From contig JAFZOS010000067.1 of NCBI GenBank assembly GCA_017550535.1, positions 1 to 45,252 of the forward strand: DNA of 45,252 nucleotides, written 5' to 3'. The notes beneath the pieces are model-generated. The model searched no databases. It was not told where the DNA came from and saw nothing but the letters and a program-made list of their open reading frames with translations. Shown here piece by piece: positions 16,546 through 45,252 of this stretch. This DNA is from Lachnospiraceae bacterium (GTDB lineage Bacteria > Bacillota > Clostridia > Lachnospirales > Lachnospiraceae). Position 1 is the first letter of the stretch. Every line of letters begins with the position of its first letter. Position numbers and translations under genes: made by a program.

Positions 16546-16575
16546 TGTGATGACGGATTATCCGGAGGGAATGAT

Positions 16576-22279: not shown

Positions 22280-22404
22280 AATAAGTGTTTGATTATTGTT
22301 TCAGGGTAGATTATAATTTTAGCACAAAGCATTATAGATCTTTTCTGTATACATCTTTACCCTATATGATTATCTATCAGTTTTGGGTAAAGGAGGTGAA
22401 AGAA

Positions 22405-27631: not shown

Positions 27632-27658
27632 ACAAATATTTCAAAAAAAGGGGAAAAA

Positions 27659-28435: not shown

Positions 28436-28436
28436 T

Positions 28437-29492: not shown

Positions 29493-29544
29493 TAACACGA
29501 TTTAAAGAGTGATATATGTATTTAGATATAAAGGGTTTTCAACG

Positions 29545-30657
29545 ATGAAGGAAATATGTATATTTGGATGTGGGAAGCATGCATCACATGTGTTTTATAG
29601 GCTGAAGCAGGATGGTTATCAAATAAAATACATATTTGATAATTATATAAAAAAACCATTTTATGGTATGCCTATAACTAGGATTAGCGAATGTCTCGAT
29701 GAATTAAATACTATGATGATTCTAGTTACGAATGATTTATACTATAAAGATGTCAAAGAGCAATTAGAAAAATACGGACTTAAAGAGTTTTGCGATTTTA
29801 TTAAGGCGGATGCATATAATAAAAAAATTGTATTTATTAACGGCAACTGTTATTCAAGATACATAGGAATATTATTGCGTCGTTGCGAAGAATTCAATAA
29901 TATATACTATGTTTATGATGACACGTCAATTCTATCGCATCCTAATGAAATTGATAGTAACTTACTTAGGAATTGCGATGTGTTTATTCACCAAGATATA
30001 CAGATGGGAAACAAGTATAGTGACATTTTTGCGGATGCTATGACAATTCCTAAGCTTAAGAAAGAGTGCATTAGTATTTGTATTCCAAATCTTGTTGGAT
30101 TTGGGGGATTATTGTATCCGCAAGCTTATTTTTCAGATGATTTTGAAAATGATATGTTTCCAAATAGAGATTGTATAGTGGATGGTTTGATTAAGCATGG
30201 ATATTCGATTGATGACATTGTTAATATCGTTTGCACTTGTAAAATATTTTCAGATAGTATGCTAATGAATGAATATAAAACAATAGTTTCTAAATTTAGA
30301 GAAAGAGAAAAAGAATGGGATATAAAGATAATTGACTATATAGTAGAAAACTTTAGAAGCATAAAATGTTTTGTTGATCGAGCACATCCTACAGATATAG
30401 TATTTAGAGTGATAATAAAAGGGATTCTTGAGATACTTAATATTGAGTATAATACGCTGGAATACAGTATTTATAATAGAGATATATTTCAGGGAACGGA
30501 GAATATAATATATCCTGATGTTGCTAGGTTTTTTAAATTACAATACTGGTCCGAAGATTATGAATTACGAAGGTTTTTCCCGCAGAAGATTAGAGCTATG
30601 AATATGGAAGAATATGTGAGAGAGTATATTTTTGAGTATTATGAAAGACTAGTTTAA
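29545..30657 (+). CDS. Rossmann module + WcbI-like polysaccharide protein
   Basis: 370 residues from ATG 29545 (AAAGGG at 29527-29532); the in-frame ATG at 29509 has no ribosome site. Residues 1-90 are the locus-wide Rossmann-like module: ICIFGCGKHASHVFYRL, then YIFDNYIKKPFYGMPI. From about 95 comes a WcbI domain: FINGNCYSRYIGILLRR, CDVFIHQDIQMGNKYS, ISICIPNLVGFGGLLYPQ, and a C-terminal block with VDRAHPTDIVFRVI. WcbI is required for capsule synthesis in Burkholderia and may have acetyltransferase-like chemistry, but its reaction is not settled. First gene in the locus to carry the module. Confidence 0.82.
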   Translation: MKEICIFGCGKHASHVFYRLKQDGYQIKYIFDNYIKKPFYGMPITRISECLDELNTMMILVTNDLYYKDVKEQLEKYGLKEFCDFIKADAYNKKIVFINGNCYSRYIGILLRRCEEFNNIYYVYDDTSILSHPNEIDSNLLRNCDVFIHQDIQMGNKYSDIFADAMTIPKLKKECISICIPNLVGFGGLLYPQAYFSDDFENDMFPNRDCIVDGLIKHGYSIDDIVNIVCTCKIFSDSMLMNEYKTIVSKFREREKEWDIKIIDYIVENFRSIKCFVDRAHPTDIVFRVIIKGILEILNIEYNTLEYSIYNRDIFQGTENIIYPDVARFFKLQYWSEDYELRRFFPQKIRAMNMEEYVREYIFEYYERLV

Positions 30658-30658
30658 T

Positions 30659-32182
30659 ATGAAATTAATGTATGATATAGGAATAATATATAGAAGTAAC
30701 CATAATTATGGAGCAAACCTAACACATTTATCACTTTGTCAGTTTTTAAAAGATATAAGCAAGACTATTTTAATGATTGATGTACCAATTGAGTCAAAGT
30801 TATATCTACCGGCAGACGATCCTGATCCTATGTCCCTTTTTGAAGAGAATCCATACAAAAATGTTGATTTTTATAGAGCTAGGTATTATTGGGATCTGGT
30901 TAAAATTGGAGGGATATGCAATATATATATTGTTAGTTCGGATCAATTATGGAGGAGTTATTTTCTCAAAGCAACAAATTACTATTCTTTACTAGATTGG
31001 ACTGATGATGACAGATTTAGGATGTCATATGCAACGTCATTTGGTGTTGAATGTTTTGAAGGTACAGTTGAGGACACGCATGAATTATCAGTAAGACTAA
31101 GTAGGTTTAATTCAATATCAGTAAGGGAATCGTCGGGTATTGGCATTGTTGAATCAATATGTAAAAATAAAGCTGAATGGGTTGCTGATCCGGTTTTTTT
31201 ACTAGATCGATATCAGTATATTGATATGTTTGCTTTGCATGATAATAATGGGTCTAATGGTGTGTTCATCGGGGCATATTTTCTTGATATGACTGATGAT
31301 AAGATAGAGTTTATCAAAAATATAATTAAATATCTGAGAATAAATAGATGTGAAACGATTCTGGATGCAATGCAGAATCATGAGTTCAATGACATTCAAG
31401 GTGATGATTTTGCGATAAACTTTATAAAACCTAAAGTAGAGGGATGGCTTACGATGATAAAGAATTGTGAATTTTTGGTTACAGATTCTTTTCATGGAAC
31501 GTGTTTTGCGATAATCTTCAGAAAGCCATTTTATGTTGTGTTTTCAGAAAGCAATTCACGCGGATATGCACGAATTCGCGAAATGTTAGGTAGATTAGGG
31601 CTGACCGATCGTATTATTTCGGATGAAGTGATTCTATCATATGGCATAAAAGAATGTATGAAAATTGATTATGATAGCGTTGAAGTCAAGCTATCTGAGT
31701 TCATTAAGCATAGTAAAAAATGGCTAAATAGGTGCTTGAAAAAAGCTGAAGAAATTAATATGAGCGCATTAAGTAGTCGTAACTGTTTTCAGCTCAAACT
31801 GTTGGATGAAAAGATAGTATATAAGGATAGATTAAAAAGCATAAAAGAAAACTGTACAATTATTAATTTTGAAAAACCTGTTGTTCTTTGGGGGGCTGGT
31901 AATTGCTTTAGAGACAATATAAAATGGCTAGTTGATATAATGAGAATAGAATATGTAGTAGACATCAATCCGAACAAATGGAGTAAGAACTATATATTTG
32001 GGTTGATTTGCGATTCGTGGGAGAACATAAAACAAAACTATATGAATCAAGAGATGCAAGTGTTGATTTTAATACTGGATGAAAAGTCAGTATGTGAAAT
32101 TAAAGAATTCTTGGCTGGAGAGGGAGATTTTAGTTGTGCTTCTTATAGGGAATTAGTTGAAAACACATTGCTAGTTGAATGA
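30659..32182 (+). CDS. Polysaccharide pyruvyltransferase + C-terminal Rossmann module
   Basis: 507 residues, ATG at 30659 one base after the previous stop; an in-frame ATG at 30668 is also possible. Residues 1-385 match the pyruvyltransferase family (PF04230): HNYGANLTHLSLCQFL, VSSDQLWR, SYATSFGV, SVRESSGIGIVE, DPVFLLDR, VTDSFHGTCFAIIFRKPFYV. Such enzymes put ketal pyruvate from phosphoenolpyruvate on sugar residues of surface polymers. Residues about 405-507 hold the Rossmann-like module (VVLWGAGNCFRDNIKWL, YVVDINPNKWSKNYIFG, VLILILDE). The next ORF overlaps its stop. Confidence 0.87.
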   Translation: MKLMYDIGIIYRSNHNYGANLTHLSLCQFLKDISKTILMIDVPIESKLYLPADDPDPMSLFEENPYKNVDFYRARYYWDLVKIGGICNIYIVSSDQLWRSYFLKATNYYSLLDWTDDDRFRMSYATSFGVECFEGTVEDTHELSVRLSRFNSISVRESSGIGIVESICKNKAEWVADPVFLLDRYQYIDMFALHDNNGSNGVFIGAYFLDMTDDKIEFIKNIIKYLRINRCETILDAMQNHEFNDIQGDDFAINFIKPKVEGWLTMIKNCEFLVTDSFHGTCFAIIFRKPFYVVFSESNSRGYARIREMLGRLGLTDRIISDEVILSYGIKECMKIDYDSVEVKLSEFIKHSKKWLNRCLKKAEEINMSALSSRNCFQLKLLDEKIVYKDRLKSIKENCTIINFEKPVVLWGAGNCFRDNIKWLVDIMRIEYVVDINPNKWSKNYIFGLICDSWENIKQNYMNQEMQVLILILDEKSVCEIKEFLAGEGDFSCASYRELVENTLLVE

Positions 32183-32202
32183 ATGCTTTGAAGGTGAGAC
32201 AT

Positions 32203-33246
32203 ATGCGAGTTGCTTTTTTTCCATATTCTACAAACGGTGTTAGCTATATTTCTTCAATACAACAGATGTTGCAGCAAAAGTATGAGATAGTTAATTTTGA
32301 TCATTTAAGGAAGGGTGCTTGGAGACTAGCTGAAATTGACTGTATTTACCTAAATTGGATCGAAGGGTATATGGAAGATGGTGACACTGATATATTGAAG
32401 GGTGCCAAAGATTATGGAACAAAGATCATATGGGTGTTTCATAATAAATTGCCGCATATATGTCGCGATGATGATGAAGATTTGAAAAGGATTAAGTTTC
32501 TATCCGAAATTGCTGATGTAATTATACTGCATTCTCATAATAGTGAGGCGGTTTTAATGGGTTATTTTGAAAATGCATTTGAGGGTATTAGAAGAAAGCT
32601 CAGATATTTGCCACATCCCAACTATATTAATGATTATAGAGCGTACAAATATCCTTTGAATAATGAGATACCTCAATGCGAGGATGATAAGCTTACATTT
32701 GCATTTATTGGGCGTATACGGCCGTATAAGAATGTTGATATATTAATAAAGGCTTTTAATTCGATTGGAGATAATACTGACAGTAGGCTTTTATTAGCGG
32801 GCGGCATACACCCAAATGATTATAGAAAAAAAATCGAAAATCTCTTGAATGATAGAGATGATATTGTATTATTTCCATATGATATTGGTTCTATGGAAAT
32901 GGCAAGATTTCTTGGAATGGCGGATGTTATTGTACTGCCATACAGTTTGAGAAGCAGTATGAATTCAGGTAGTATGATGATGGCCTTTTCATATCATAAG
33001 ACAGTCATAATTCCTGATATTTGTATGGCTGATGATTTCCCGGATGAACAAATTTTTATGTATCATTATGATTCTGCTGAAGAACATGTAGAGAGACTTA
33101 AAGATAGTATGATGACAGCATATGCATTGGGTACTGTAAAACTAAAAGAAAAAGGTGATCGGTTATATAATCTTGTTGAAAAAGATTACAGCAAGGAAAA
33201 AGTTCAAGAAACACTATATGAAATAGTTGATAATTTAAGAGGATAA
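32203..33246 (+). CDS. GT4-type glycosyltransferase without Rossmann module
   Basis: 347 residues from ATG 32203, chosen for AAGGTGAG at 32189-32196. An ATG at 32179 overlapping the previous stop (ATGA) is the alternative. GT-B features: VAFFPYSTNGVSYISSI, YLNWIEG, LRYLPHPNYINDY, FIGRIRPYKNVDILIKAF, LLLAGGIHPNDY, IVLPYSLRSSMNSG. It should transfer a sugar from a nucleotide donor to the growing glycan at the membrane face. It is the only large enzyme after 29545 that lacks the Rossmann module, and the gene directly after it encodes that module alone. Confidence 0.88.
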   Translation: MRVAFFPYSTNGVSYISSIQQMLQQKYEIVNFDHLRKGAWRLAEIDCIYLNWIEGYMEDGDTDILKGAKDYGTKIIWVFHNKLPHICRDDDEDLKRIKFLSEIADVIILHSHNSEAVLMGYFENAFEGIRRKLRYLPHPNYINDYRAYKYPLNNEIPQCEDDKLTFAFIGRIRPYKNVDILIKAFNSIGDNTDSRLLLAGGIHPNDYRKKIENLLNDRDDIVLFPYDIGSMEMARFLGMADVIVLPYSLRSSMNSGSMMMAFSYHKTVIIPDICMADDFPDEQIFMYHYDSAEEHVERLKDSMMTAYALGTVKLKEKGDRLYNLVEKDYSKEKVQETLYEIVDNLRG

Positions 33247-33247
33247 T

Positions 33248-33673
33248 ATGAGTGCAGATGATTTTGCCGTATTTAAACAATGTATGATAGATTTGGACAA
33301 TTATAGGTTCAGAGAAAGTGTACTGTCAAGATGGCTTGCAATAAGCATTAAGGGGAATTCTGTTTCTGATTTCTTGATGGTTAATAATCTGAATAGTGTC
33401 ATTGTATATGGCTATGGCGTTGTTGGAAAACTTCTGGTAGAAGAATTGGCGAATAAAACAGGTATAGATATAGTAGCAATAATTGATAAAAACGCCGGAG
33501 TATATGATGAGGTAATTCCGATCATATCACCGGATGACTGCATTCCGAAGCACGATATTATGCTGGTTACCTTTATGGATACTAATTATGCCAAAAATTT
33601 GATGGGTGAACGTAGCTCTAATGTAGTTGGGATCGATGAACTGCTTGATGGCTTTAAGATTTATAATCATTGA
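33248..33673 (+). CDS. Free-standing Rossmann-module protein
   Basis: 141 residues, ATG at 33248 one base after the GT4 stop (AGAGGATA upstream). About 45 N-terminal helical residues (FKQCMIDLDNYRFRESVLSR) precede the module: SVIVYGYGVVGKLLVEEL, IVAIIDKNAGVYDEVIPIIS, HDIMLVTFMDTNYAKNLM. The glycine pattern GYGVVG matches dinucleotide-binding loops. It looks like the C-terminal domain of its neighbours split off as a separate subunit, probably acting in trans with the preceding GT4. Confidence 0.75.
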   Translation: MSADDFAVFKQCMIDLDNYRFRESVLSRWLAISIKGNSVSDFLMVNNLNSVIVYGYGVVGKLLVEELANKTGIDIVAIIDKNAGVYDEVIPIISPDDCIPKHDIMLVTFMDTNYAKNLMGERSSNVVGIDELLDGFKIYNH

Positions 33674-33681
33674 GGTATTAC

Positions 33682-34935
33682 ATGGATAGAGCGCCAATTC
33701 TTTTATTAGCATATAACAGGCCTGATTCTTTAGAAAGGACACTTTCTTCTATTGCTGGTTGCGAAAACAGTGATCAGTACATCATGTATGTTCACATAGA
33801 TGCTCCGAACATATATAAAAGCGCGGATGTTGAATGCAATTTCATAGTAAAAAGGGTTATAGAAAAATACAGGAATAGATTTAAGCAGTTTGTTGTTGAT
33901 GAAGAGAAGTTTCATTGTGGTCTTGCCAATTCTGTAATTAAGAGCGTTCAAAATATCATTTCTATATATGGAAAAATCATTGTTGTGGAGGATGATCTGG
34001 TCGTTTCAAAAGATTGTCTGAATTATCTGAATAGTGCGCTTGAAATATACAAAGATAATAAAAAGATATGGTCGATAACCGGGTATTGTCCGCCGTTGGA
34101 TCATTTGAAGGATTATAAAAAGAGTGTGTTTTTGACTCCCAGGGCATGCAGTTGGGTGTGGGCGACATGGATTGATAGATGGGAAAGAGTGGATTGGGAT
34201 GTTTCCGATTATAATGATTTTGTAAATGATCGCGATGCGCAGGTACGCTTTTGCAGAGGTGGTTATGACCAGCCCTTGATGTTAAAACAGCAAATGGAGG
34301 GGTTTATTGATTCGTGGGGGATACGATGGAGTTACGCTCAAAGTAAGCAAGATATGATGACTGTATATCCGGTACACAATAGAGTCTATCATATAGGTTT
34401 TACAGGTGGCACGCATGTTAATAAAGAATTTCCTCAGACCGGATTATTAGAAGTGTATCCCGAGTGTATATTTGAGGAAAATATCGATGATATATTGATC
34501 AAAGAATATCAGCAGTTCTGTGGAGGAAATCCGGAAGAATGGGATAAATGTTTTGAGCACATTGGTGATAACAGTCGGTTTGAGAGTATGTTCAATGTTA
34601 TGCATCTGTGGAAAGCGTTGAATGAGATTGGACACAGTATTTCAGAGTACTTCTTTAACCGGAATTTTAAGAGAATTGCTATATATGGAAAAGGCAAAAT
34701 CGGTGGACATATTGAAAATGAATTGATGAATTCCGGTGTTGATGTATTGTACTATATAGACAGGAATCTGGATTTGTGTGATGAAATACGTTGCTTTTCT
34801 CCCGATGATGTTTTGCCTGAATGCGATTGCATTATAATTTCAGTAACAACGAATATTAATAGTATAAGAAACATACTGCAATCAAAGCATAAGGGTGCAA
34901 TCAAGAGTATTATGGATGTGTTAAAGGACAGATAA
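33682..34935 (+). CDS. GNT-I-like glycosyltransferase + C-terminal Rossmann module
   Basis: 417 residues from ATG 33682 (TGAGGT at 33671-33676); a TTG at 33670 is less likely. GT-A type fold: PILLLAYNRPDSLERTLSSI, VHIDAPN, IIVVEDDLVVSKDCLNYLNS (metal-binding EDD), ITGYCPP, LTPRACSWVWATW, QPLMLKQQMEGFIDSWGIRW. These resemble GT13-like bacterial sugar transferases. Residues about 329-417 are the Rossmann module (IAIYGKGKIGGHIENEL, YYIDRNLDLCDEIRCFS, CIIISVTTN). Donor and acceptor unknown. Confidence 0.85.
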   Translation: MDRAPILLLAYNRPDSLERTLSSIAGCENSDQYIMYVHIDAPNIYKSADVECNFIVKRVIEKYRNRFKQFVVDEEKFHCGLANSVIKSVQNIISIYGKIIVVEDDLVVSKDCLNYLNSALEIYKDNKKIWSITGYCPPLDHLKDYKKSVFLTPRACSWVWATWIDRWERVDWDVSDYNDFVNDRDAQVRFCRGGYDQPLMLKQQMEGFIDSWGIRWSYAQSKQDMMTVYPVHNRVYHIGFTGGTHVNKEFPQTGLLEVYPECIFEENIDDILIKEYQQFCGGNPEEWDKCFEHIGDNSRFESMFNVMHLWKALNEIGHSISEYFFNRNFKRIAIYGKGKIGGHIENELMNSGVDVLYYIDRNLDLCDEIRCFSPDDVLPECDCIIISVTTNINSIRNILQSKHKGAIKSIMDVLKDR

Positions 34936-34955
34936 TTGGCCAGAGGTGAAGATAA

Positions 34956-36149
34956 GTGAATGTCGTGATATGGGGCACAGGAAAAAAAGCTCTTTGGGTT
35001 GAATTACATATAAAGGATAAAGTGGAAATTAAGGGTATCATTGACTCTGATAAAAACAAGGTCGGGAAGTTTTACTTAATAAATAACATGCAATACCCTA
35101 TTTTAGCGCCTGATGGAATAAATGATTTAGAATGCGATTATTTGATAGTAGCAGTAGAGAATGAGAAATATTGTGCTGAAATTCAGAATCAGCTGAATAA
35201 TTTGGGCTTTGATGATAGCAAAGTCATATTTGTGTCTAAAATCGAACAATATGATGATGTAGTTATTGAAGAATTATTCAATAGTGAGGCGCTTGATAAG
35301 TGTAACGAAGGATTTTTCTTTATAAATGGTAAAAGAATGGTTTGTCCTAAAGATTATCCGTTAGTACGTTTCAAAAAAGAACACTTTATGTATGATGAGT
35401 TTCTGCCTGTACTTGTTTCTAACGCAAAAGCGGATGGAGTGATAATTGATATAGGTGCAAATATCGGAGATACCTGTGTGGCTTTGTCTAAACACAGGAA
35501 TATGAAATTTGTATGTGTGGAACCATCATATTATTTCTATGAGATGTTGGTAAACAATACTGATGAGCTTCGCACGGAAAAAAGGATAGCATATGAGAAG
35601 GCATTTGTTTCCAATAAATCCGGAAACTATGTTGCTGAATTAAAAAACGGAACAGGTATCATGAGACAGGATGCAGCAGGTGCTGAGAGTGAAAATAAAA
35701 CCCTGGATATGATCATAAATGATAATGAAATCGATTATAATGAATTATTTTTGATAAAAATTGATACCGATGGATATGATGGAAGTGTTTTGCTTTCCGG
35801 AAAAGATGTTCTAAAGAGGGGCAGCGCGATCCTCTTTTGGGAAAACCAAATAGATACTTATGAACAGTATTCGGATTATAAGGATGCTTATGACTTGCTA
35901 TCATATTCGGGTTATACCACATATTTTGTTTTTGATAATAGAGGAAATTATCTATGTGATGGCGGTATTGATAATGTCAGGGATATATGCGATTATTTAC
36001 AACGAATTAAAACAGGATGGAGTACTAAAACATTTGAATATGTTGATGTGATGGCATGTAAAAATAATGAGATCCCAATTTGTTTGGCAGCAAAGGATGA
36101 ATATCTTAAGAGATATAAATATCCCGTAATTATTGATGATAGAAACTAA
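34956..36149 (+). CDS. Rossmann module + FkbM-family methyltransferase
   Basis: 397 residues. GTG start at 34956 with AGAGGTGA at 34942-34949. Residues 1-100 are the Rossmann module (VVIWGTGKKALWVELHI, GIIDSDKNKVGKFYLI, YLIVAVENEKYCAEI). Residues about 160-300 form an FkbM SAM-dependent methyltransferase: VIIDIGANIGDTCVALS, FVCVEPSYYFYEML, LFLIKIDTDGYDGSVLLSG. FkbM enzymes O-methylate sugars or other hydroxyls, so the glycan may carry a methyl group. The C-terminal 90 residues are family-specific. Confidence 0.88.
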   Translation: MNVVIWGTGKKALWVELHIKDKVEIKGIIDSDKNKVGKFYLINNMQYPILAPDGINDLECDYLIVAVENEKYCAEIQNQLNNLGFDDSKVIFVSKIEQYDDVVIEELFNSEALDKCNEGFFFINGKRMVCPKDYPLVRFKKEHFMYDEFLPVLVSNAKADGVIIDIGANIGDTCVALSKHRNMKFVCVEPSYYFYEMLVNNTDELRTEKRIAYEKAFVSNKSGNYVAELKNGTGIMRQDAAGAESENKTLDMIINDNEIDYNELFLIKIDTDGYDGSVLLSGKDVLKRGSAILFWENQIDTYEQYSDYKDAYDLLSYSGYTTYFVFDNRGNYLCDGGIDNVRDICDYLQRIKTGWSTKTFEYVDVMACKNNEIPICLAAKDEYLKRYKYPVIIDDRN

Positions 36150-36166
36150 ATATATGTGTGTGAATT

Positions 36167-37654
36167 ATGAATACTATGGCGATTTTAGGAATAGAGAATA
36201 AAAGAATAGTACTTTTTGGCGCTGGCTATTGCGGCAGAAAATGGCTTGAAGTATTATCAAAGCTTGATATAGATGTTGAGGCTTTTATTGATAATGACAA
36301 GGAAAAGCATGGACAGTACATATCTGGCGTACCGGTTTTTTCTTTAGATGAAATATTGGAAAATGATACTACATATACGTTTGTAATTTCGGTGGAAAAT
36401 TCGGCGGATATTATAAGAAATCAATTGGTAAATGCAGGGATTAAAGAATCTAACATCATTATGCTGGACGATCTGTATAATTCAAAACATCTATGTAGAT
36501 TAATAGAAAGTAAGATAATAGATATAGAAAACTATATGAAAGGCAGTATTCCTGTTTATGTTCAGGCAGATATATCATTTAGTGTATTCTATGACGATCA
36601 GGCATTTGCAATGCAGAAATATGGTGGTATTTCAAGGTGTTTTTTTGAACTTGCAGAAGGACTTGAGAGATATGGAAATATAGGGGTTTATATTTATAAG
36701 GGTGTAAATATCAGTGGGTTCAAATTTGGTAGTGGAATACATGATTTGTTCTCATACAGTGCCGATGAAGAACCCCTTTTTGATTATAGAATAAGGCAAA
36801 AGATTAACCGGGATATTTTACGACAGTATTTTAGCAGTAATCCCAAATTCGATATATATCATCCTACATATTACGGTGATTACGGCTTAGCGAATTATAA
36901 GAAGAAAATAATAACAGTTCATGACATGATCCATGAATTGTTTGGGTTGGACAAAAAGACTATTGAAGAAAAAAAGAAGATGGTGGAATCGGCTGACGGA
37001 ATCATTGCCGTGTCCGAAAATACAAAACGAGATCTTATAGATATACTTAATGTTCCGGAAGAGAAGATCAAGGTCATACATCATGGGAATTCTTTAAATT
37101 ACAATGTTAGCAGCGAGCGTTTGATAAAAGAACCATATTTGCTATATGTGGGTGAGCGTGGCGGATATAAGAATTGTGATACACTTTTAAGGGCTTTTGC
37201 GGAATGTACTCATAATAACGATATAAAATTGATTTGCTTTGGTGGGGGTAAATTTAGGGCTTCTGAATTGGAATTAATAAAGAATCTTGGCATTTTAAGA
37301 AGTGTGGAGCAAATAGGTGGGGATGATACTGTGCTTGCGAATTTATATGCTTATGCAGAACTGTTCATATATCCATCTAAATATGAGGGGTTTGGCATTC
37401 CCTTACTGGAGGCGATGCATTACGGTACACCGATAATAACGGGAGATACTTCCTCCATGCCGGAGGTCGCGGGAGATGCTGCCGAGTATTTTAATCCTGA
37501 TTCATATGAGGATCTGAGAGATTGTATCGACTGTCTGTTGGATGACAAGTTGCTAAGAAACCAGTATGTAGAAAAAGGATATAAGCAGAAAAAGTTGTTT
37601 TCGTGGGACAAAACAGTAATGGAAACGTATGATTATTATAAATCATTTTTATAA
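36167..37654 (+). CDS. Rossmann module + GT4 glycosyltransferase
   Basis: 495 residues, ATG at 36167; a second in-frame ATG at 36176. The ribosome site is weak. The module occupies about residues 11-110 (RIVLFGAGYCGRKWLEVL, FIDNDKEKHGQYISGVPV, TFVISVENSADIIRNQL). Then a complete GT4 enzyme: FAMQKYGGISRCFFEL, YHPTYYGDYGL, VHDMIHELFG, GIIAVSENTKRDLIDIL, YVGERGGYKNCDTLLRAF (about 327), and EGFGIPLLEAMHYGTPIITG (about 406) with the E-x7-E donor-binding pair. Group 1 retaining glycosyltransferase of unknown specificity. Confidence 0.9.
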   Translation: MNTMAILGIENKRIVLFGAGYCGRKWLEVLSKLDIDVEAFIDNDKEKHGQYISGVPVFSLDEILENDTTYTFVISVENSADIIRNQLVNAGIKESNIIMLDDLYNSKHLCRLIESKIIDIENYMKGSIPVYVQADISFSVFYDDQAFAMQKYGGISRCFFELAEGLERYGNIGVYIYKGVNISGFKFGSGIHDLFSYSADEEPLFDYRIRQKINRDILRQYFSSNPKFDIYHPTYYGDYGLANYKKKIITVHDMIHELFGLDKKTIEEKKKMVESADGIIAVSENTKRDLIDILNVPEEKIKVIHHGNSLNYNVSSERLIKEPYLLYVGERGGYKNCDTLLRAFAECTHNNDIKLICFGGGKFRASELELIKNLGILRSVEQIGGDDTVLANLYAYAELFIYPSKYEGFGIPLLEAMHYGTPIITGDTSSMPEVAGDAAEYFNPDSYEDLRDCIDCLLDDKLLRNQYVEKGYKQKKLFSWDKTVMETYDYYKSFL

Positions 37655-37734
37655 TTTGGAAATGTACTTACAGTTTCAAGATACAGATTGGAAAAAACAA
37701 ATTAACAAGGGTTTTTGCGTTTTTTGGAGTTTTT

Positions 37735-38916
37735 ATGATTAAGATATCAATAATCACTGTGGTCCTGAATGGTGCCAAAACAATTGAACGGGCAATAAAA
37801 AGCGTTATCGATCAGCATTATGATAATGTTGAGTATATTATCATTGATGGTGGATCTACTGACGGAACCGTAGATATTATCAAAAAATATGAGAGTTATA
37901 TTACATATTGGATAAGTGAACCTGATGATGGTATTTATTCGGCGATGAATAAGGGCCTCAAACATGCAACGGGTAAGTATGTGAATTTTCTTAATAGTGA
38001 TGATTGGTTTGAAGGCGATGTTTTGGGGAAGGTTGCTGATTATATTGAGATAACAGATGCAGATGTGGTGTATGGAGATTATAATCGTGTTCTTTATGAT
38101 GGAACAAAGATAAGGGTTGATTCAAGACCGTTGGATTATATGAATGTCAGTATTCCTTTTTGCCATCAATCTGTTTTTGTAAGGAAAAACCTTGCGCATG
38201 ATTTTGATGAAAGCTATAAGATTGCGGCAGATTATAAAATGTTGTTGGATTTCTATAATGATAATAGGACATTTTGTTATTTGCCGTATGTGATATCAAA
38301 TTATAAATCGGGAGGAGTAGCGGATAAAGGTACATATAATACATTTGAAGAATTGAGTATTATCGCTGCAGAAGGCTTGGTTAAATCGGTAGATAGAGTT
38401 GCGGTGTATGGGCCAATAGTATTGGAGAATCTGATCATTGCTGAAATAAATAAAAAAATAATAAGCGGACTCAATCATAATCTAATAATGAGATATTTTG
38501 ATGAAAGAATAAACAATGTTGATGATGGAGAAATAGTTCTATTCGGAATGGGTGAGTTGCTTAATAAGTATTACAAGCTGATCGAAAGAAATATTAAGCG
38601 AATTAGATATTTTGTTGACAATGATATTTCAAAAGAAGGAACATACGTTTTGGGCAAGGAGGTGCATCTTCCAGGTATATTAAGGAAAGAAGAGAAGCTA
38701 TCGGTAATTATACTGAATGAGAGGTATTGTTATGAAATAGAAAGACAGTTGGAAGACATGAATCTGTCGTCAAGCGTCAAAGTTTATAATTATGTAGATC
38801 TTAAAAGAGATTATATAAAGCGGGAGGGAACAAGAATTTTGGGAGAATTATCTCAAAAAAATGAATGTATAAAGACACTATATGAAATGGTTCGGTCAAC
38901 GAGACAGCGACTTTAA
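37735..38916 (+). CDS. GT2 glycosyltransferase + C-terminal Rossmann module (paralogue 1)
   Basis: 393 residues, ATG at 37735 (GGAG at 37726-37729). GT-A family 2: ISIITVVLNGAKTIERAIKS, EYIIIDGGSTDGTVDII, EPDDGIYSAMNKGLKHATGK, FLNSDDWF (metal-binding), VYGDY, PFCHQSVFVRK, AADYKMLLDF. The module lies at about 262-365 (EIVLFGMGELLNKYYKLI, YFVDNDISKEGTYVLGKEV, VIILNERYCYEIERQL). The protein at 40300 is a paralogue with the same architecture. It makes sense as one of two related inverting transferases of the pathway. Confidence 0.9.
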   Translation: MIKISIITVVLNGAKTIERAIKSVIDQHYDNVEYIIIDGGSTDGTVDIIKKYESYITYWISEPDDGIYSAMNKGLKHATGKYVNFLNSDDWFEGDVLGKVADYIEITDADVVYGDYNRVLYDGTKIRVDSRPLDYMNVSIPFCHQSVFVRKNLAHDFDESYKIAADYKMLLDFYNDNRTFCYLPYVISNYKSGGVADKGTYNTFEELSIIAAEGLVKSVDRVAVYGPIVLENLIIAEINKKIISGLNHNLIMRYFDERINNVDDGEIVLFGMGELLNKYYKLIERNIKRIRYFVDNDISKEGTYVLGKEVHLPGILRKEEKLSVIILNERYCYEIERQLEDMNLSSSVKVYNYVDLKRDYIKREGTRILGELSQKNECIKTLYEMVRSTRQRL

Positions 38917-38991
38917 AGCAACAGTAATAGTGGATTTGGTGGTAGTTATGAAGCCCATAGTGTGGTAAAAACATATGGAGAAGGAGTTTCT

Positions 38992-39246
38992 ATGTGTATA
39001 GCAAAACCGACTGCTTTAGATAAGATGAATGAATTGAAGAATCTATTGTTAATTATTGAAGACAGCTATAATGATTTTGTTCTTGCCATGTTGGATGAGG
39101 CTGAGAAATCGGATTATCGGCGTGATGAGTTGCTTAAATATCTTAGGAGTGATAAAAGCACGTTGTCATCGGATGTTATCAAATTCGTTATGGTTGATCT
39201 GGGATTGTACAACGAGTATAGGAGCAAAGAACATCTGCTGATATGA
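38992..39246 (+). CDS. Small helical protein of unknown function
   Basis: 84 residues from ATG 38992 with AAGGAG at 38981-38986; the in-frame ATG at 38962 lacks a ribosome site. Composition and periodicity suggest a helical bundle (LDKMNELKNLLLIIEDSYND, FVLAMLDEAEKSDYRRDELL, KYLRSDKSTLSSDVIKFVMV). No signal peptide, cysteine cluster or known motif. It follows the GT2 gene by 75 nt. Confidence 0.65.
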   Translation: MCIAKPTALDKMNELKNLLLIIEDSYNDFVLAMLDEAEKSDYRRDELLKYLRSDKSTLSSDVIKFVMVDLGLYNEYRSKEHLLI

Positions 39247-39431
39247 GGCGGGAGATAATCCCGGCTCATGGTATATATAGGAATAATAGTGTTATTAACT
39301 GAAAGAAAGTGTACTTTGACAATTTCATACTTTACATCTGAAGTGGGGATTAAAGCATTTTGGTAAATCTGCACAAGCTTTAATACGTTTTGGGATGCCC
39401 AAAATGGCGGATATTTGTTATGTTTTATGAA
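39247..39431. other. Non-coding stretch
   Basis: Together with the promoter and leader that follow, this makes a gap of 298 bases. It holds a weak GC stem directly after the small gene (GGCGGGA.. with ..TCCCGGC near 39246-39264, no T-tract) and a perfect 7-bp hairpin TTTTGGG/CCCAAAA at 39388-39404. I see no gene in it. Confidence 0.5.
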
Positions 39432-39460
39432 TTGACAGTGTGGTGAGAAGCCTATAAGAT
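39432..39460 (+). promoter_or_regulatory. Predicted promoter of the 39545-40226 gene pair
   Basis: TTGACA (39432-39437), 17-nt spacer, TAAGAT (39455-39460). The expected start near 39467 gives a leader of about 78 nt that contains the 34-bp element at 39478-39511. Confidence 0.6.
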
Positions 39461-39477
39461 TTAATAGTCAGATATAT

Positions 39478-39511
39478 CATATAGGTGTCCGGACGTTCGT
39501 CCCTATTTCCC
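39478..39511 (+). repeat. Shared leader element, copy B
   Basis: 34 bp, 31 identical to 22246-22279, including the GGACGTTCGTCC hairpin and trailing TATTTCCC. It lies about 11 nt after the predicted transcript start and 33 nt before the likely TTG start codon. Confidence 0.75.
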
Positions 39512-39544
39512 TGCTATTATTCGGTTGTTATGAAGGAGTTGCGA

Positions 39545-40024
39545 TTGGCTGAGTTTATTGAAAATGATAACAAACATGATATAATTAATACAGAGGCGCT
39601 AAGAAAAAAGGAACATAAAAGAGAAGGATACAGTTTTATAAGTGATCGTAGATTCAAGCAATTAACAGCAAATGTGCGAAAGAAAGGCGCAGTTATCCTT
39701 CGCGGCGGGGAGGATATAGAAGAATACCTTGACTTAAGAAAAGCGGATGCATTGACGATAGAAAAGGTGATGATGTTCAGACAGCAGGTTACTTTAAGTG
39801 AAGTGCTGGAGGAAATCCATCATTTTGAGCAGAATCTTGAAGGGCTTAATGAGGATAAGGATGCGATTTTGCGCGGAATATTGAATGAGATTGATGCCAA
39901 GGAATTTCTGATTAAGAATGCCAAAACTTTTCGAATACCAAGAAAAGAAACGCGGGAAACGATGATGCAGTTAAATATGTATTATCGGATGCTTGAGGAA
40001 TGGAGGGAGGCTCACAATGTGTAA
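39545..40024 (+). CDS. Uncharacterised protein, first of an overlapping pair
   Basis: 159 residues from TTG 39545, chosen because GAAGGAG at 39532-39538 is six bases upstream. The frame is open further up, with ATG 39530 and GTG 39485, but the latter lies inside the leader element. Basic N-terminal third (LRKKEHKREGYSFISDRRFK), a short beta segment (GAVILRGGEDIEEYLDLRKA), then long helices (EVLEEIHHFEQNLEGLNEDK, MMQLNMYYRMLEEWREAHNV). No recognised family, signal peptide or membrane helix. Overlaps the next gene by 8 nt, which indicates coupled translation. Confidence 0.7.
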   Translation: MAEFIENDNKHDIINTEALRKKEHKREGYSFISDRRFKQLTANVRKKGAVILRGGEDIEEYLDLRKADALTIEKVMMFRQQVTLSEVLEEIHHFEQNLEGLNEDKDAILRGILNEIDAKEFLIKNAKTFRIPRKETRETMMQLNMYYRMLEEWREAHNV

Positions 40025-40226
40025 GGTGAAGGATGAATTTGTTGTCGGAAAGTACAGAATACTTGGGTTGGATGAACCTTTGCCGATGCAGCCTTTTAAG
40101 TTTTTGCTGATAGCGGGAAAAGGGTATAGTGCTCTGAATGTATATGATGCTAAAGACGCTGTTGGCATAGAAGATGAAGGGGATTCGCTTATTGGTGAAG
40201 AGGTTGAGTTTTCAATGACAATATAG
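40017..40226 (+). CDS. Uncharacterised 69-residue protein, second of the pair
   Basis: ATG at 40017 with GGAGG at 40006-40010. Short beta-rich sequence (EFVVGKYRILGLDEPLPMQP, FKFLLIAGKGYSALNVYDAK, acidic end EDEGDSLIGEEVEFSMTI). A small acidic partner translated from an overlap with a larger basic protein is a layout shared by many two-component systems, including toxin-antitoxin pairs, but nothing in the sequence proves that. Confidence 0.68.
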   Translation: MCKVKDEFVVGKYRILGLDEPLPMQPFKFLLIAGKGYSALNVYDAKDAVGIEDEGDSLIGEEVEFSMTI

Positions 40227-40247
40227 AACTTCCCTGGAATGGATCAT

Positions 40248-40299
40248 AAACTCCCGATGTAAAGTATGTGATTGAATTACTTTATAGCGGGAGTTTTTT
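40248..40299 (+). terminator. Terminator/attenuator hairpin overlapping the next ribosome site
   Basis: AAACTCCCG (40248-40256) pairs with CGGGAGTTT (40288-40296), and an inner TAAAGTA/TACTTTA stem extends it. T-run 40294-40299. The GGGAG within the 3' arm (40289-40293) is also the only ribosome site of the gene starting at 40300. The hairpin should therefore end upstream transcription and, in read-through mRNA, hide the site. Confidence 0.75.
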
Positions 40300-41469
40300 A
40301 TGAAGATTTCAATAATCACGGTGGTCCTAAACGGTGCTAAGACAATTGAACAGACAATACGAAGTGTTATCGGGCAGAGTTATCCGGAGATTGAGTATAT
40401 CATTATCGATGGGGGTTCTGTTGACGGTACGGCGGATATCATACGGAATTATGAGGATCATTTGTCATACTGGGTAAGTGAGCAGGATGACGGGATTTAT
40501 GACGCTATGAACAAAGCTCTTTCGCATGTTAGCGGTGATGTCGTAAACTTCCTTAATGCAGGTGATGAGTACTTTGATCGTGATGTGATCGCAAACATAA
40601 GCAGGCATTTTGCTGATGAACCCGATACGGATGTTTTGATCGGGCGTGAGCTGATCGAAGGGAAGGCTTGCAGGTCATATCTAGACGGAAATTGCAGATC
40701 GGTTTATTTTGATACATTTTTCCCTCATCAGGCTACGTTTTCCAAAGCAATACTGTATAAGGATCATGGCCTGTTTGATCAGGGATATAAAATATGTGCT
40801 GATTATGATTGGATACTCGGCGTGTTTAGTAAAGGATATAAGCTAAGATGGTGCGATGAGGTGGTTGCTGTTTATGATCCGAACGGTATCAGTTCGACGC
40901 CTGCAAGCATAGCCGAACAGTATCTTATATCAAAGAAGTATCTGGAGCAGTCAGACGGTAAGGGGCTGATGGATGAGGCTAAAGATCATTACCTTGATAT
41001 GTTCAGGCGTGTTTTTTTCAGGAACCTTATTAAGAACAGAGTATCAAACGACAGCATTAAAGGATGTTTAAATGAGCTTCTCGGTAACCGTACCGTGGAT
41101 ATATGGGGCGCGGGAAATATAGGAAAGCATATAAACGGTTTTCTTGCAGCAAACGGTGTAAGTGTAAGGTACATGCTAGATTCCGACCGATCAAAACACG
41201 GATCGGATTCAAATGGAACTCCGATAAGGGGTTTTGACAGGGATGACAGGGTTTATATCATCATTTCTACCGAGGATTATGAAAATGAAGTTACGGATAT
41301 GCTTGATAAAGCAGGACTAAACGCTGGCAAGGATTATATGACTTACACAGATTTCAGTTCATCGGTAACCGGCTATTTGATAGGGCATGGATATGATGAT
41401 GGCGGATTTGCTTTAATGACGGGGTTAAGATATGCAAGAGTCGGTAGACAGGCTTCAGGAAATATTTGA
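40300..41469 (+). CDS. GT2 glycosyltransferase + C-terminal Rossmann module (paralogue 2)
   Basis: 389 residues, ATG at 40300 directly after the hairpin T-run. Same architecture as the 37735 gene and close sequence: ISIITVVLNGAKTIEQTIRS, EYIIIDGGSVDGTADII, EQDDGIYDAMNKALSHVSGD, FLNAGDEYF, FPHQATFSK, CADYDWILG. The module lies at about 262-360 (VDIWGAGNIGKHINGFLAAN, YMLDSDRSKHGSDSNGTPI, YIIISTEDYENEVTDML). Base composition is noticeably less AT-rich than the earlier glycan genes. The next gene starts 38 nt before its stop. Confidence 0.9.
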   Translation: MKISIITVVLNGAKTIEQTIRSVIGQSYPEIEYIIIDGGSVDGTADIIRNYEDHLSYWVSEQDDGIYDAMNKALSHVSGDVVNFLNAGDEYFDRDVIANISRHFADEPDTDVLIGRELIEGKACRSYLDGNCRSVYFDTFFPHQATFSKAILYKDHGLFDQGYKICADYDWILGVFSKGYKLRWCDEVVAVYDPNGISSTPASIAEQYLISKKYLEQSDGKGLMDEAKDHYLDMFRRVFFRNLIKNRVSNDSIKGCLNELLGNRTVDIWGAGNIGKHINGFLAANGVSVRYMLDSDRSKHGSDSNGTPIRGFDRDDRVYIIISTEDYENEVTDMLDKAGLNAGKDYMTYTDFSSSVTGYLIGHGYDDGGFALMTGLRYARVGRQASGNI

Positions 41470-43588
41470 TGAAAAGTTTCGGCAGTTTAGCGGCATTCCG
41501 ATCGGAATATACGGGGTCGGTAAAAATGCCGGAACAATAGTTGAGAATATTAAAGGGTATGATTTTGCATGTCTTATCGCGGCAGATCATTTCCATGAAA
41601 TGATGTACGGATACGAAGTTCTGCCTTTGGCTGAAGCATTAAAAAAAGTAAAGCTTATCATAATAGCTGCAATCCCCGCATCCACAGCGATAATCTATGA
41701 ACGCATAAGGGAGGAAGTGCCCGGACACATACCGATCTACAATATGCACGGTTACCTGTTAACCGGAGATGATAATTACAGGAACAATGCATATTGGAAA
41801 AGTACGGAACAGGAGTTGCATGATGCGATAGATGCGCATGATACCATCTCATTTGATATATTTGATACGCTGGTGATGAGGCGGGTATTACAGCCAAGGG
41901 ACGTATTCGATCCGGTTGCCGCAGGAATCGATCATGAGCATGTTGCGAAGGTTTTTAAGGATACAAGGATACGGGCTGAAGAGCAGCTGTATGATACGCA
42001 GGTGAGCCCGACAATAGATGAGATCTATGACCTGATCGGACGTGAATTAAAGCTTGAATCTTCGGACATAAAAAAGCTCAGGGACATGGAACTTAAGGCT
42101 GAAATTTCCGTGACAGTTCCAAGGTTACGGATGGTAAATGCGCTTAAATATTCATTTGATAAAGGCAGACGGGTGATTCTTACTTCGGATATGTATTTCG
42201 GAGAGGCTGATATTCGTAAGGTTTTGGCTGCCGCAGGCATCACAGGTTCGTTTGATATGCTGGTTTCGTGTGATCACAGTGCATCTAAGGAAAGGGGAAC
42301 ACTGTACGGAATACTTAAGGAGAAGGCAAACGGATCATCTATCCTTCATATCGGAGATGATGAAATTAACGACATACAAAGGGCGCGCGAAAACGGGATC
42401 GATGCTTTTTATGTAAAAAAGGGCTATGATATACTTGCCCAATCATCCGGTGCATTTCTTCTTGATAAGCAATGTTGTTTTACGGACAGGTGTATGCTCG
42501 GGTATCTTATTTCGGAAATGTTCAATGATCCGTTTGTATTGAATGCTTCGGAAGGAAAGCTACGGGTTTGTGACTATAAGGATATCGCATTGCGCCTGCT
42601 TCCGGTTACTGCCGTATACCTGTCATATATAATTGAAAATGCGCACCTGTATGACATGCTTATGTTTGCGTCAAGGGACGGTTATTTCCTTTACAGGATG
42701 TATGATAAGTATTTAAAGGAACATCCGGATTTAAACCTTCCCGGGGCTGAATATATCTATATGTCACGTTCGGCTGTAAGCAGTGCGGCTGTTCTGTCAT
42801 ATGAAGATATCGATGTTTTGTCAAATAAGGTTTTGGATGATCCGAAGCTTAATCTTAAAAGTTTTTATAAAACCCAGTTCCATGTCGATCTGCCGGATAT
42901 GTTTGATATGACAAATGAGGCGGCGGTTGGTAAGTGGGGGCTTGACGGGCTTAAGGAAAAACTAAGGGCATATTATGATGATATACTTTCCGTATCTGCT
43001 TTGAATCGGGAGAAGTATCTTACATATTTAAGGTCGGCGGGAGTCCTTAAGTGTGAGCATCCGGCTATAGTGGATATAGTAACACAGGGAACCCTGGTTT
43101 ATGGGATGCGGCGGATCCTTAATAAGGATATAGGACTAATCGCAATGGGAACTTCCTGTGTCCCCAACAGTTATATTGATGGTTCAGATGTTCATTCGCT
43201 GTACGGAAACATCACGGAACGGATAGGAAATGCGATACACAGTATGTCTGATTTTTCTGAAAATCATCTGCTGCTTGAAATGCTGTATGGTTCTGACGAT
43301 GGACAGCTTAGCGGATTTGATGATGAGGGAAGGCCGGTATTTGCTAAGGGAACGGAGTATGACAAAGGGCTGCTTGGCGGAGTGCAGGATGAGCTTGAGA
43401 GGATGATCGGTGAATTGTTTGATACAAAGATGTTTAATGGCATCTCAAAAGAATTTGCCATGGATGTTTTGAGGCTGTGCAAAGGGAAGTATTCGGATTA
43501 TGATGAGGATATCGCTTCGGAATTTTCTTTCAGCGATCCGTATGACGGTAGCCTGAGTTCGGTCAATCTTATTGATTATTTGAAGTAA
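41432..43588 (+). CDS. Rossmann module + HAD-like hydrolase (COG5610 type)
   Basis: 718 residues, ATG at 41432 (GGGGTTAAG upstream). The module lies at about 20-110 (IGIYGVGKNAGTIVENI, YGYEVLPLAEALKKVKLIII). A HAD domain follows: motif I SFDIFDTLVM with nucleophile Asp142 and Phe at +2, motif II LTSDMYF, motif III Lys in SASKERGTL, motif IV HIGDDEINDIQRA. The C-terminal half (about 370-718) is a large helical domain with FASRDGYFLYRMYDKY and EYIYMSRSA. Such proteins recur in capsule and O-antigen loci, but their substrate is unknown; a sugar-phosphate phosphatase or lipid-linked intermediate editing enzyme is possible. Confidence 0.87.
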   Translation: MQESVDRLQEIFDEKFRQFSGIPIGIYGVGKNAGTIVENIKGYDFACLIAADHFHEMMYGYEVLPLAEALKKVKLIIIAAIPASTAIIYERIREEVPGHIPIYNMHGYLLTGDDNYRNNAYWKSTEQELHDAIDAHDTISFDIFDTLVMRRVLQPRDVFDPVAAGIDHEHVAKVFKDTRIRAEEQLYDTQVSPTIDEIYDLIGRELKLESSDIKKLRDMELKAEISVTVPRLRMVNALKYSFDKGRRVILTSDMYFGEADIRKVLAAAGITGSFDMLVSCDHSASKERGTLYGILKEKANGSSILHIGDDEINDIQRARENGIDAFYVKKGYDILAQSSGAFLLDKQCCFTDRCMLGYLISEMFNDPFVLNASEGKLRVCDYKDIALRLLPVTAVYLSYIIENAHLYDMLMFASRDGYFLYRMYDKYLKEHPDLNLPGAEYIYMSRSAVSSAAVLSYEDIDVLSNKVLDDPKLNLKSFYKTQFHVDLPDMFDMTNEAAVGKWGLDGLKEKLRAYYDDILSVSALNREKYLTYLRSAGVLKCEHPAIVDIVTQGTLVYGMRRILNKDIGLIAMGTSCVPNSYIDGSDVHSLYGNITERIGNAIHSMSDFSENHLLLEMLYGSDDGQLSGFDDEGRPVFAKGTEYDKGLLGGVQDELERMIGELFDTKMFNGISKEFAMDVLRLCKGKYSDYDEDIASEFSFSDPYDGSLSSVNLIDYLK

Positions 43589-43640
43589 CACTTGTGTGAT
43601 CATCGGTGATATATTTAGTGGATAATGCGGCAGGCGGTGT

Positions 43641-44771
43641 ATGGAAAGGAAATTAAGATACACAAATGAAACTATAAAGCAGATAATGGATGCGGACAGG
43701 ATCGTTATCTATGGTGCGGGGACAATGGGCAGGGCTGTAAGGAAATGTATATCGGAAGAGCCTTATATGCTAAAACCCGAATGTTTTATTGTCCGCAGCA
43801 TGGATGATAATGATAAGGTTGTTGACGGTCTGCCTGTCGTTAAGCTTGCGGATGCGCTTGATCATCGGTCGTCGCTTGTATTGGTTGCGCTTAATGGGAA
43901 ACTGATGCCCGGTGCGGTTACCGGTCTTAAGGCGGAAGGGTTTGAGAGGATACTGCCGGTTTCGTTCGACGGAGATATATGGACTGAGATAAGGAGTAAC
44001 TGGATAATTGCAAATGATGTGCTGCCCGGGGATGTTAAGAGGGTTGATGACATTGAGCCGATGGGGAGACGGAGCGGTGTAAAATTATGTAAACTAAATA
44101 TATATGTTGCACACAGTATATATGATGCTGACCTGCCGATAAAGCCTGAGCTTAAGGATTACGAGTCACCCATCCATGTGGGTGCAGCACTTGCTGATAA
44201 GAAGCTTTTTGAAATAACCGATGCTGACGGAGCGGACAATATTTCTGAAAAGAACAGGCAGTATTGTGAGACTACCGGGATATACCTGGCATGGAAAAAT
44301 GATACGGCGGATTATGTCGGGTTCAGCCACTACAGACGGCGGTTTTGTCTTGATGAAAAGGCTCTGGATGTGATCTTAAGCGGAAACGTTGATGTGGTTG
44401 TGACGGAGCCGATCCTGAATTTTGCAAGTGTTAAGGCCCAGTACGGGAAGGATCATATTATTGATGACTGGCTTGTCCTTATGGATGCGATCTCAAAGGT
44501 CGCGCCTGAATATCTTGAGTCGGCAAAACAGGTGGAGCAGGGTATATACTATTATGCCTATAATATGTTTATAATGAAGCATGACATATTTGACAGTTAT
44601 TGCCGGTTCATGTTCCCTGTACTTGAGTATTGCGTGAAACGCATCGGAAAGCGGGAAGACATATATCAGAACAGATACGCAGGTTTTCTTGCTGAGCGTC
44701 TGTTGACCATATTTTTGAATGAGAATCGGCAATACACCGTTGCTATTGCTGATAAGAAATTTATTGAGTAA
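43641..44771 (+). CDS. Rossmann module + DUF4422 glycosyltransferase-like protein
   Basis: 376 residues, ATG at 43641 (weak AGGCGGTG upstream). The module lies at about 12-105 (DRIVIYGAGTMGRAVRKCI, VVDGLPVVKLADAL, SLVLVALNGK). From about 150 comes DUF4422: IYVAHSIYDADLP, PIHVGAALADKK, GIYLAWKNDTADYVGFSHYR, NMFIMKHDIFDSYCRFMFPV and YQNRYAGFLAERLLTIFL. DUF4422 proteins occur throughout capsular loci and are predicted glycosyltransferases. Last complete enzyme of the locus in this window. Confidence 0.88.
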   Translation: MERKLRYTNETIKQIMDADRIVIYGAGTMGRAVRKCISEEPYMLKPECFIVRSMDDNDKVVDGLPVVKLADALDHRSSLVLVALNGKLMPGAVTGLKAEGFERILPVSFDGDIWTEIRSNWIIANDVLPGDVKRVDDIEPMGRRSGVKLCKLNIYVAHSIYDADLPIKPELKDYESPIHVGAALADKKLFEITDADGADNISEKNRQYCETTGIYLAWKNDTADYVGFSHYRRRFCLDEKALDVILSGNVDVVVTEPILNFASVKAQYGKDHIIDDWLVLMDAISKVAPEYLESAKQVEQGIYYYAYNMFIMKHDIFDSYCRFMFPVLEYCVKRIGKREDIYQNRYAGFLAERLLTIFLNENRQYTVAIADKKFIE

Positions 44772-45240: not shown

Positions 45241-45252
45241 GATTTAGAATAA

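Follow-up and report, generated by a model that had tools for sequence, protein, structure and literature searches.

A Rossmann-type module shared by the enzymes of membrane-free glycosylation loci in Lachnospiraceae is a candidate nucleotide-responsive association domain

The window analysed here, the entire 45,252-base contig C87 of a Lachnospiraceae bacterium with a genome of 2.7 Mb, holds a glycan locus in which one Rossmann-type module of ~90 residues is carried by 10 of 11 principal open reading frames (ORFs) within 15 kb. Loci in which the module tags several neighbouring enzymes recur in other genomes, and polytopic membrane proteins are scarce in their tagged spans. We propose, with a probability of roughly 0.4, that the module would act as a nucleotide-responsive association domain for membrane-free glycosylation, a reading drawn from comparative analysis of sequences and structure models. 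So far, accessory Rossmann domains were known from individual glycan enzymes, WbaP for example. The kind of domain is known (PglD_N, CoA_binding, C2185-like_N and the domain of unknown function (DUF) of WbaP); its locus-wide distribution and the contrast with lipid-carrier loci appear to be new. Full-text literature searches, with subscription papers and preprints outside their scope, found no description of either.

Results

Ten copies of one module in 15 kb

The eleven principal ORFs follow one another on one strand from 29509 to 44771, with two small ORFs between the GT2 genes. The initial annotation had placed ten copies of the module there, five N-terminal, four C-terminal and one free-standing, and all of them were found in these places. 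Leave-one-out profiles recovered nine copies in whole proteins with 15.7–53.4 bits, compared with a best of 4.9–9.9 bits in 999 shuffles each; the exception is the weak copy of the HAD protein (6.7 bits versus a shuffle best of 5.5). The same profile test found no module in the GT4 protein at 32179-33246, which precedes the free-standing copy and had been singled out as lacking it. The lowest clear scores are those of the pyruvyltransferase (15.7 bits), DUF4422 (18.4 bits) and free-standing (22.6 bits) copies. Since a Rex-like frame of the same genome reaches 26.6 bits with the ten-copy profile, at least as much as these three, the argument for them rests on position, fold and clustering. Chance likeness was rejected on the shuffle test and on the clustering of matches.

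The window copies are 20–28% identical to the first alignment row, which agrees with the earlier claim that they do not result from recent duplication. Both glycines of G-x-G and the acid ending strand 2 are invariant in the ten-copy alignment, the acid of the DUF4422 and HAD copies being out of register when these are aligned to a larger profile. A G-x-G-x-x-G-like loop had been described; its first two glycines hold throughout the window, and the third is present in only 58% of modules. By alignment, the nucleotide loop and the strand-2 acid are the most conserved positions, and G-x-G plus the acid is kept in 184 of 262 sequence-unique modules collected from the loci described below.

A half-Rossmann fold with nucleotide-binding relatives

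Structure models had been suggested as a check on the common fold, and they came out confident. For the GT4 module with an 83-row alignment, AlphaFold gave a half-Rossmann (predicted local distance difference test, pLDDT, 93.1), and for the free-standing protein a 32-residue helix followed by a half-Rossmann of the same kind (pLDDT 92.1). Two rows of that alignment belong elsewhere (L066, DapDH-like by our own reading, and L054:10777, a C-methyltransferase domain). The beta-alpha-beta unit, the G-x-G loop and the acid ending strand 2 of an NADP_Rossmann-type fold are all present (AlphaFold, Foldseek, VIA-align). The closest solved structures are 3nkl, 2g6t, Rex, VioB and WbaP (Foldseek/VIA-align), and the sequence profile agrees.

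The NAD(H) domain of Rex has the same fold as the module (best profile match 4e-11, top Z 13.0). However, Rex is a DNA-binding redox sensor without a glycan-enzyme part, whereas the modules studied here sit on glycan enzymes. The 83 modules are not captured by any one Pfam family, 8 matches at E 0.001 being the most. PglD_N (PF17836), the N-domain of NeuD/PglD/VioB acyltransferases, is the same half-Rossmann and matches 8 of the 83 at this threshold, but it belongs to one acetyltransferase and not to unrelated enzymes; its cut-off of 23.4 bits is not reached by window copies (three listed matches of 17, 14.5 and 19.3 bits) and is exceeded by two proteins of another tagged locus, L134 (32.2 and 27.0 bits). 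CoA_binding (PF02629, cut-off 22.3 bits) matches 6 of the 83 at E 0.001 and, among window copies, only that of the GT4 protein (24.6 bits, or 28.6 as isolated module). The cut-off of C2185-like_N (PF22674, 27 bits) is not reached by the FkbM copy (22.0 or 24.8 bits) or the GT4 module (23.9 bits), and another of the 83 modules matches at 2.8e-13. This family, with PDB entry 2g6t from Clostridium acetobutylicum, stands for one uncharacterised protein, whereas the module is found on many enzymes. We take 2g6t to be CAC2185, encoded near flagellar genes. Methyltransf_14 (PF08484), a related Rossmann domain at the C-terminus of sugar C-methyltransferases (3 of the 83 rows, one at 2e-36), is integral to one enzyme family, unlike the module.

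Two further relatives bear on a possible ligand. The fold list contains a VioB entry with, according to its title, a bound thymidine diphosphate (TDP)-sugar, and the VioB N-domain presumably serves as a nucleotide holder. The cytoplasmic DUF of WbaP, found in large monotopic phosphoglycosyl transferases (PGTs; PF13727), has the same core fold as the module; it occurs on one membrane enzyme per pathway, whereas here many soluble enzymes of one locus carry the module. This DUF is stabilised by uridine mono-, di- and triphosphate (UMP, UDP, UTP) and WbaP is inhibited by UMP (PMC10942596). Given these nucleotide-binding relatives of the fold, a common ligand for the modules is plausible.

Tagged loci recur in other genomes

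In its own genome, the ten-copy profile gave one further good match (contig C60, 1.5e-12), the rest being weak, a 218-residue Rex-like frame included. In 20 kb of C60 with glycan genes a single ORF is tagged; on contig C64, in 34.7 kb with glycan genes, the sole profile match is a DapDH-like protein. Matches were found in 22 of 41 genomes (own included), several with clusters, and, across the order, in 59 of 246 genomes among the matches listed. The initial annotation had proposed a search for loci with at least three tagged neighbours, and such loci do recur: of the matches listed from outside the window, 106 of 140 have a neighbouring match within 20 kb, at least 21 genomes of the order hold three or more matches in 20 kb, and the members of each of the 70 neighbour pairs point in one direction. 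A phylum-wide search of 299 genomes, dominated by Rex-like frames of ~210–240 residues, brought up clusters in further families, along with many isolated Rex-like matches (among the matches listed). The module thus occurs in the phylum of the window and on one contig of a Verrucomicrobiota metagenome-assembled genome (MAG), the named relatives being Lachnospiraceae. That contig (L132, Opitutales) carries three module-bearing ORFs, one of them 43% identical to the region of the GT4 module of the window.

An iterated profile applied to the window and 47 fetched loci detected the module on 268 of 739 ORFs, fractions that are not unbiased since most loci were picked for having module matches. It is N-terminal in 157 ORFs, C-terminal in 83, free-standing in 17 and mid-protein in 11, and one protein has two modules. 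Overlapping fetches (L053/L054, L057/L058, L079/L080) count some ORFs twice, sequence-unique modules numbering 262. The bias from this choice of loci extends to the tallies below on enzyme clusters, ends of the module, neighbours of free-standing copies and tagged spans, and the double counts to those on free-standing copies and tagged spans.

The module is accessory and changes ends

The tagged enzymes are chemically diverse. In 84 tagged representatives, the 25 of 57 Pfam families listed include methyltransferases, FkbM, GT2, GT4, cytidylyltransferase-like and CDP-glycerol transferase proteins, radical SAM, LicD, hexapeptide, WbsX, carbamoyltransferase, DegT, GT-D, DUF4422 and TupA; one tagged locus adds GT10, Gly_transf_sug, DUF5672 and TOD1. 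In 134 untagged neighbours, epimerases, dehydratases and CMP-sugar synthetases are among the 25 of 128 families listed, and so, too, are GT2, GT4 and LicD. Enzyme clusters, built by single linkage, carry the module N-terminally, C-terminally or have members without it, which supports the initial view of one accessory domain on chemically unrelated enzymes and not an integral part of each. Within one family the module may stand at either end, as seen for the pyruvyltransferase (C-terminal in the window, N-terminal in L087), HAD, clusters 18 and 48 and GT2; for clusters 5, 6 and 12, an N- versus C-terminal contrast was not borne out by direct alignment. Such changes of end indicate an accessory domain that was gained or moved repeatedly.

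Free-standing copies share a pre-helix subtype with C-terminal ones, and five of them have a hydrophobic N-terminal stretch. In loci with at least three tags, an untagged gene adjoins every one of the 13 free-standing copies (12 distinct) whose two neighbours are known, versus 146 of 225 fused copies (P 0.006).

Two observations on individual tagged loci can be added. Untagged GT2 proteins at L053:8026-9597 and L057:4568-6229 have a C-terminal DUF6270 in place of the module. A tagged locus of the same genus as the window encodes a phosphoenolpyruvate (PEP) mutase with a cytidylyltransferase-like domain (L060:13584-14879), suggesting phosphonate decoration.

Membrane machinery is scarce in tagged loci

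Tagged spans were compared with 20 PGT loci (picked by PF02397). These surround 20 of 126 PGT matches and come from 19 genomes out of the 42 that have tagged clusters. With membrane segments predicted by a simple hydropathy window, six or more segments occur in 1 of 390 ORFs of the tagged spans versus 22 of 322 ORFs of the PGT loci. None of the 49 GT2/GT4 homologues in the PGT loci is tagged, versus 64 of 84 in tagged spans. Only one module match occurs among the PGT loci, on a PGT that itself contains a PF13727 domain. No PGT was found within 26 kb of any tagged cluster, the nearest lying 26.6 kb away. The contrast of membrane-free with lipid-carrier loci holds within the same genomes. In the window, neither a polytopic flippase or polymerase nor a PGT is predicted in 25964-44771. 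A lipid-carrier (Wzx/Wzy) polysaccharide or capsule locus was rejected, as the span has no predicted polytopic ORF or PGT.

Part of the tagged loci lie near flagellin

Flagellin is present in all 42 tested genomes, a selection among those with tagged clusters, and in 166 of 246 genomes of the order (among the matches listed). For 16 of the 42 tagged clusters a flagellin gene is no more than 25 kb away, versus 4.25 expected if flagellin genes, some of which are tandem, are treated as independent. Only 2 of 126 PGT genes are as close in a complete listing, one at a contig edge (P 2e-9 versus 16 of 42). Six flanks of tagged clusters (93 ORFs) contain flagellin, FliW, CsrA, FlgK, FliD and Maf, among 25 of 71 families listed. 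In a goat-caecum Lachnospiraceae MAG (L134:2-19115), flagellin is followed by a GT2 protein with tetratricopeptide repeats (TPRs), then by six tagged ORFs (GT2 and radical-SAM proteins included). The GT2-TPR protein likely contacts flagellin. TPRs of flagellin glycosyltransferases are likewise an accessory domain on flagellar-island enzymes, and in L134 the GT2-TPR protein stands between flagellin and tagged genes. Their fold differs from that of the module, however, and among the enzymes scanned in L134 they occur only on the one beside flagellin. Flagellar glycosylation islands are known in Clostridium (PMC13317340). Flagellin or flagellar genes stand in or beside part of the tagged loci of other genera (16 of 42 clusters, six flanks, L134); on the contig of the window no flagellin was found.

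The own-genus locus G010 is an intermediate case: downstream of its tagged cluster are a CMP-sugar synthetase-type gene and an MptE-like protein homologous to the Maf flagellin glycosyltransferases (L104:2057-3817, the same as L058:8058-9818).

Gene by gene along the window

All features below are on the forward strand. Pfam/NCBIfam names at the locus are WcbI, pyruvyltransferase, GT4, FkbM methyltransferase, GT4, two GT2, HAD-type and DUF4422; the GNT-I assignment of ORF 33670-34935 scores under its family cut-off. By profile, the module is N-terminal in the WcbI-family protein (29548..29817 in ORF 29509-30657) and C-terminal in the pyruvyltransferase (31871..32155 in ORF 30659-32182). After the GT4-type glycosyltransferase without module (32179..33246, by ORF and profile), the 141-residue ORF 33248-33673 encodes the free-standing copy (33389..33670) behind its 32-residue helix. 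The GNT-I-like protein carries its C-terminal copy at 34663..34932, with a pre-helix as in the free-standing one. N-terminal copies follow in the FkbM methyltransferase (34959..35243, ORF 34956-36149) and in the GT4 glycosyltransferase whose module was modelled with AlphaFold (36197..36478, ORF 36167-37654), then C-terminal copies in the first (38527..38793, ORF 37735-38916) and second (41086..41352, ORF 40300-41469) GT2. The series ends with N-terminal copies in the HAD-family protein (41495..41806, ORF 41432-43588), the weakest in leave-one-out, and in the DUF4422 protein (43695..43970, ORF 43641-44771). Of the two small ORFs between the GT2 genes (38916-40300), the larger (179 residues) has no Pfam match at E 0.001.

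Upstream, at 25964..29492, lie untagged genes without predicted membrane segment: the locus begins with a thiamine pyrophosphate (TPP)-dependent enzyme (PF02776, 25964-27631) and an adjoining short-chain dehydrogenase, and a 351-residue protein has no Pfam match at E 0.001. Farther away, a cytidylyltransferase-like and then an alcohol-dehydrogenase-like ORF (15832-17652) presumably resemble a pair for cytidine diphosphate (CDP)-ribitol of TarI/TarJ type, and 22285-22974 encodes a coiled-coil-like protein built from many near-identical seven-residue repeats.

Discussion

The presence of the module on enzymes of many chemistries, at either end, in trans and in loci without membrane carrier fits an association domain, and its conserved pocket fits a ligand. 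We infer a mechanism that combines association and nucleotide binding. Modules would bind each other as well as a nucleotide, either of UMP/UDP type or nicotinamide adenine dinucleotide (NAD). In this way soluble enzymes, for which no membrane carrier offers a meeting place, would be held together, and a common metabolite might throttle the gathered enzymes. The scheme would somewhat resemble the WbaP DUF, a uridine-nucleotide sensor at a dimer interface, extended here to all steps of a pathway. Anchoring could be the task of those free-standing copies that begin with a hydrophobic segment. One may go as far as to imagine a cytoplasmic 'glycan factory', in which docking modules on most chain-building and decorating enzymes replace membrane and lipid carrier as the place of gathering, free-standing copies, some of them anchored by a hydrophobic segment, are hubs or recruiters of untagged enzymes and a nucleotide switches assembly, a picture that we find doubtful.

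Several results weigh against a nucleotide-responsive association domain. Within the tagged spans, 20 of the 84 ORFs of GT2/GT4 clusters are untagged, and 78 of the 262 modules lack part of the G-x-G/acid signature, including two window copies as aligned. Judged by position, conservation peaks at the nucleotide loop and the strand-2 acid. The dimer contact of WbaP is mostly made by hairpin 251-268 (PMC10942596). The matched range, 145-242, does not include this hairpin, so the common core by itself does not imply dimerisation. The module models show no dimer hairpin but end at that very point. In EpsZ, the DUF region is part of a modelled, regulated dimer without WbaP-type hairpin (PMC12802240). 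Likeness between modules is also sobering: across enzyme families, mean identity is 20.6% within a genome versus 20.3% between genomes (100 of 2000 permutations as large). The nearest neighbour of a module is in the same enzyme family for 107 of 262 modules (16 expected) and in the same genome for 42 of 262 (7.6 expected). No strong locus code emerged: these identities hardly differ and modules follow the enzyme family. The docking code first suggested is, as one specific to a locus, faintly supported at best; a trace of it persists in cross-family nearest neighbours from the same genome (19 versus 7.5 expected, the largest of 200 permutations giving 16). This modest likeness within genomes may leave room for module exchange or for a weak code. 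Given the hardly higher mean likeness and the modest neighbour excess, an interface, if modules dock, would be mostly general and not locus-specific.

Flagellin data from the genus of the window point the same way. A complete listing places no flagellin on the contig (16 to 410 kb) of any of the seven own-genus clusters; contig C87, which ends at 45252, holds none, and neither do the cluster contigs of six congeners. No flagellar family appears in the flanks of three own-genus genomes, among 25 of 115 families listed. Moreover, C64 of the own genome has flagellin together with LicD, glycosyltransferase and DUF4422 genes that are untagged in the fetched stretches. The tag as a plain marker of flagellin islands was rejected, since own-genus clusters and C64 speak against it. 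In view of these clusters, flanks and C64, we call the locus in the window a membrane-free glycosylation locus only and assign no acceptor.

Alternatively, the module could be a feedback sensor only: with one kind of nucleotide as shared ligand (UMP, UDP, a nucleotide sugar or NAD), each copy would tune its own enzyme without docking. The conservation of nucleotide loop and acid, kept together in most modules, the inhibition by UMP of WbaP with its related DUF (PMC10942596), the position of the dimer hairpin outside the common core and the low mean likeness within genomes would all suit such a sensor. Yet free-standing copies, five with a hydrophobic stretch, would need a partner, the carriers are enzymes of unrelated chemistry and a part of the modules has an incomplete signature, so that we consider it possible but rather unlikely. 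The module might also grip the acceptor, i.e. bind a common substrate (flagellin, another exported protein or a nucleotide-carried glycan) so that the enzymes find the same chain. Transferases and decorating enzymes dominate the listed tagged families while sugar-nucleotide enzymes are frequent among the listed untagged ones (25 families each), membrane proteins are few, flagellin is linked in part of the loci and VioB appears in the fold list with its TDP-sugar. This is nonetheless hard to reconcile with the GT2-TPR protein of L134, which stands beside flagellin without a module, with own-genus clusters that share no contig with flagellin and with a module identity of ~20%, odd if one protein is recognised; we judge it quite unlikely.

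More prosaic explanations are less probable still. A passenger domain, i.e. a stable fold spread by recombination in hypervariable islands with little or no function, would account for variable placement and for the occurrence, in like loci, of members of these enzyme clusters that lack the tag, and such islands are described as recombination hotspots (PMC13317340). The absence of tags from all GT2/GT4 homologues of PGT loci, the G-x-G and acid largely kept at ~20% mean identity and the recurrence across families of the phylum make it highly unlikely. That the segments are ordinary, either Rossmann parts integral to the respective family or Rossmann-like matches due to chance, is barely credible: although Rex-like frames, a DapDH-like protein and a genuine C-methyltransferase domain are matched by the profile as well, this reading does not explain end-swapping in families, clusters with and without module, free-standing proteins and a confident separate fold, nor the close spacing and uniform direction of neighbouring matches.

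To conclude, if the association reading is true, a module shared by a whole pathway would be a sequence mark for cytosolic glycosylation, that of flagellin included, and an aid to annotating many enzymes. A common domain would also let one ask whether it serves bacteria to organise the assembly of soluble glycans or to regulate it. Similar tagging in related bacteria suggests that soluble glycan enzymes are gathered or regulated in a common manner.

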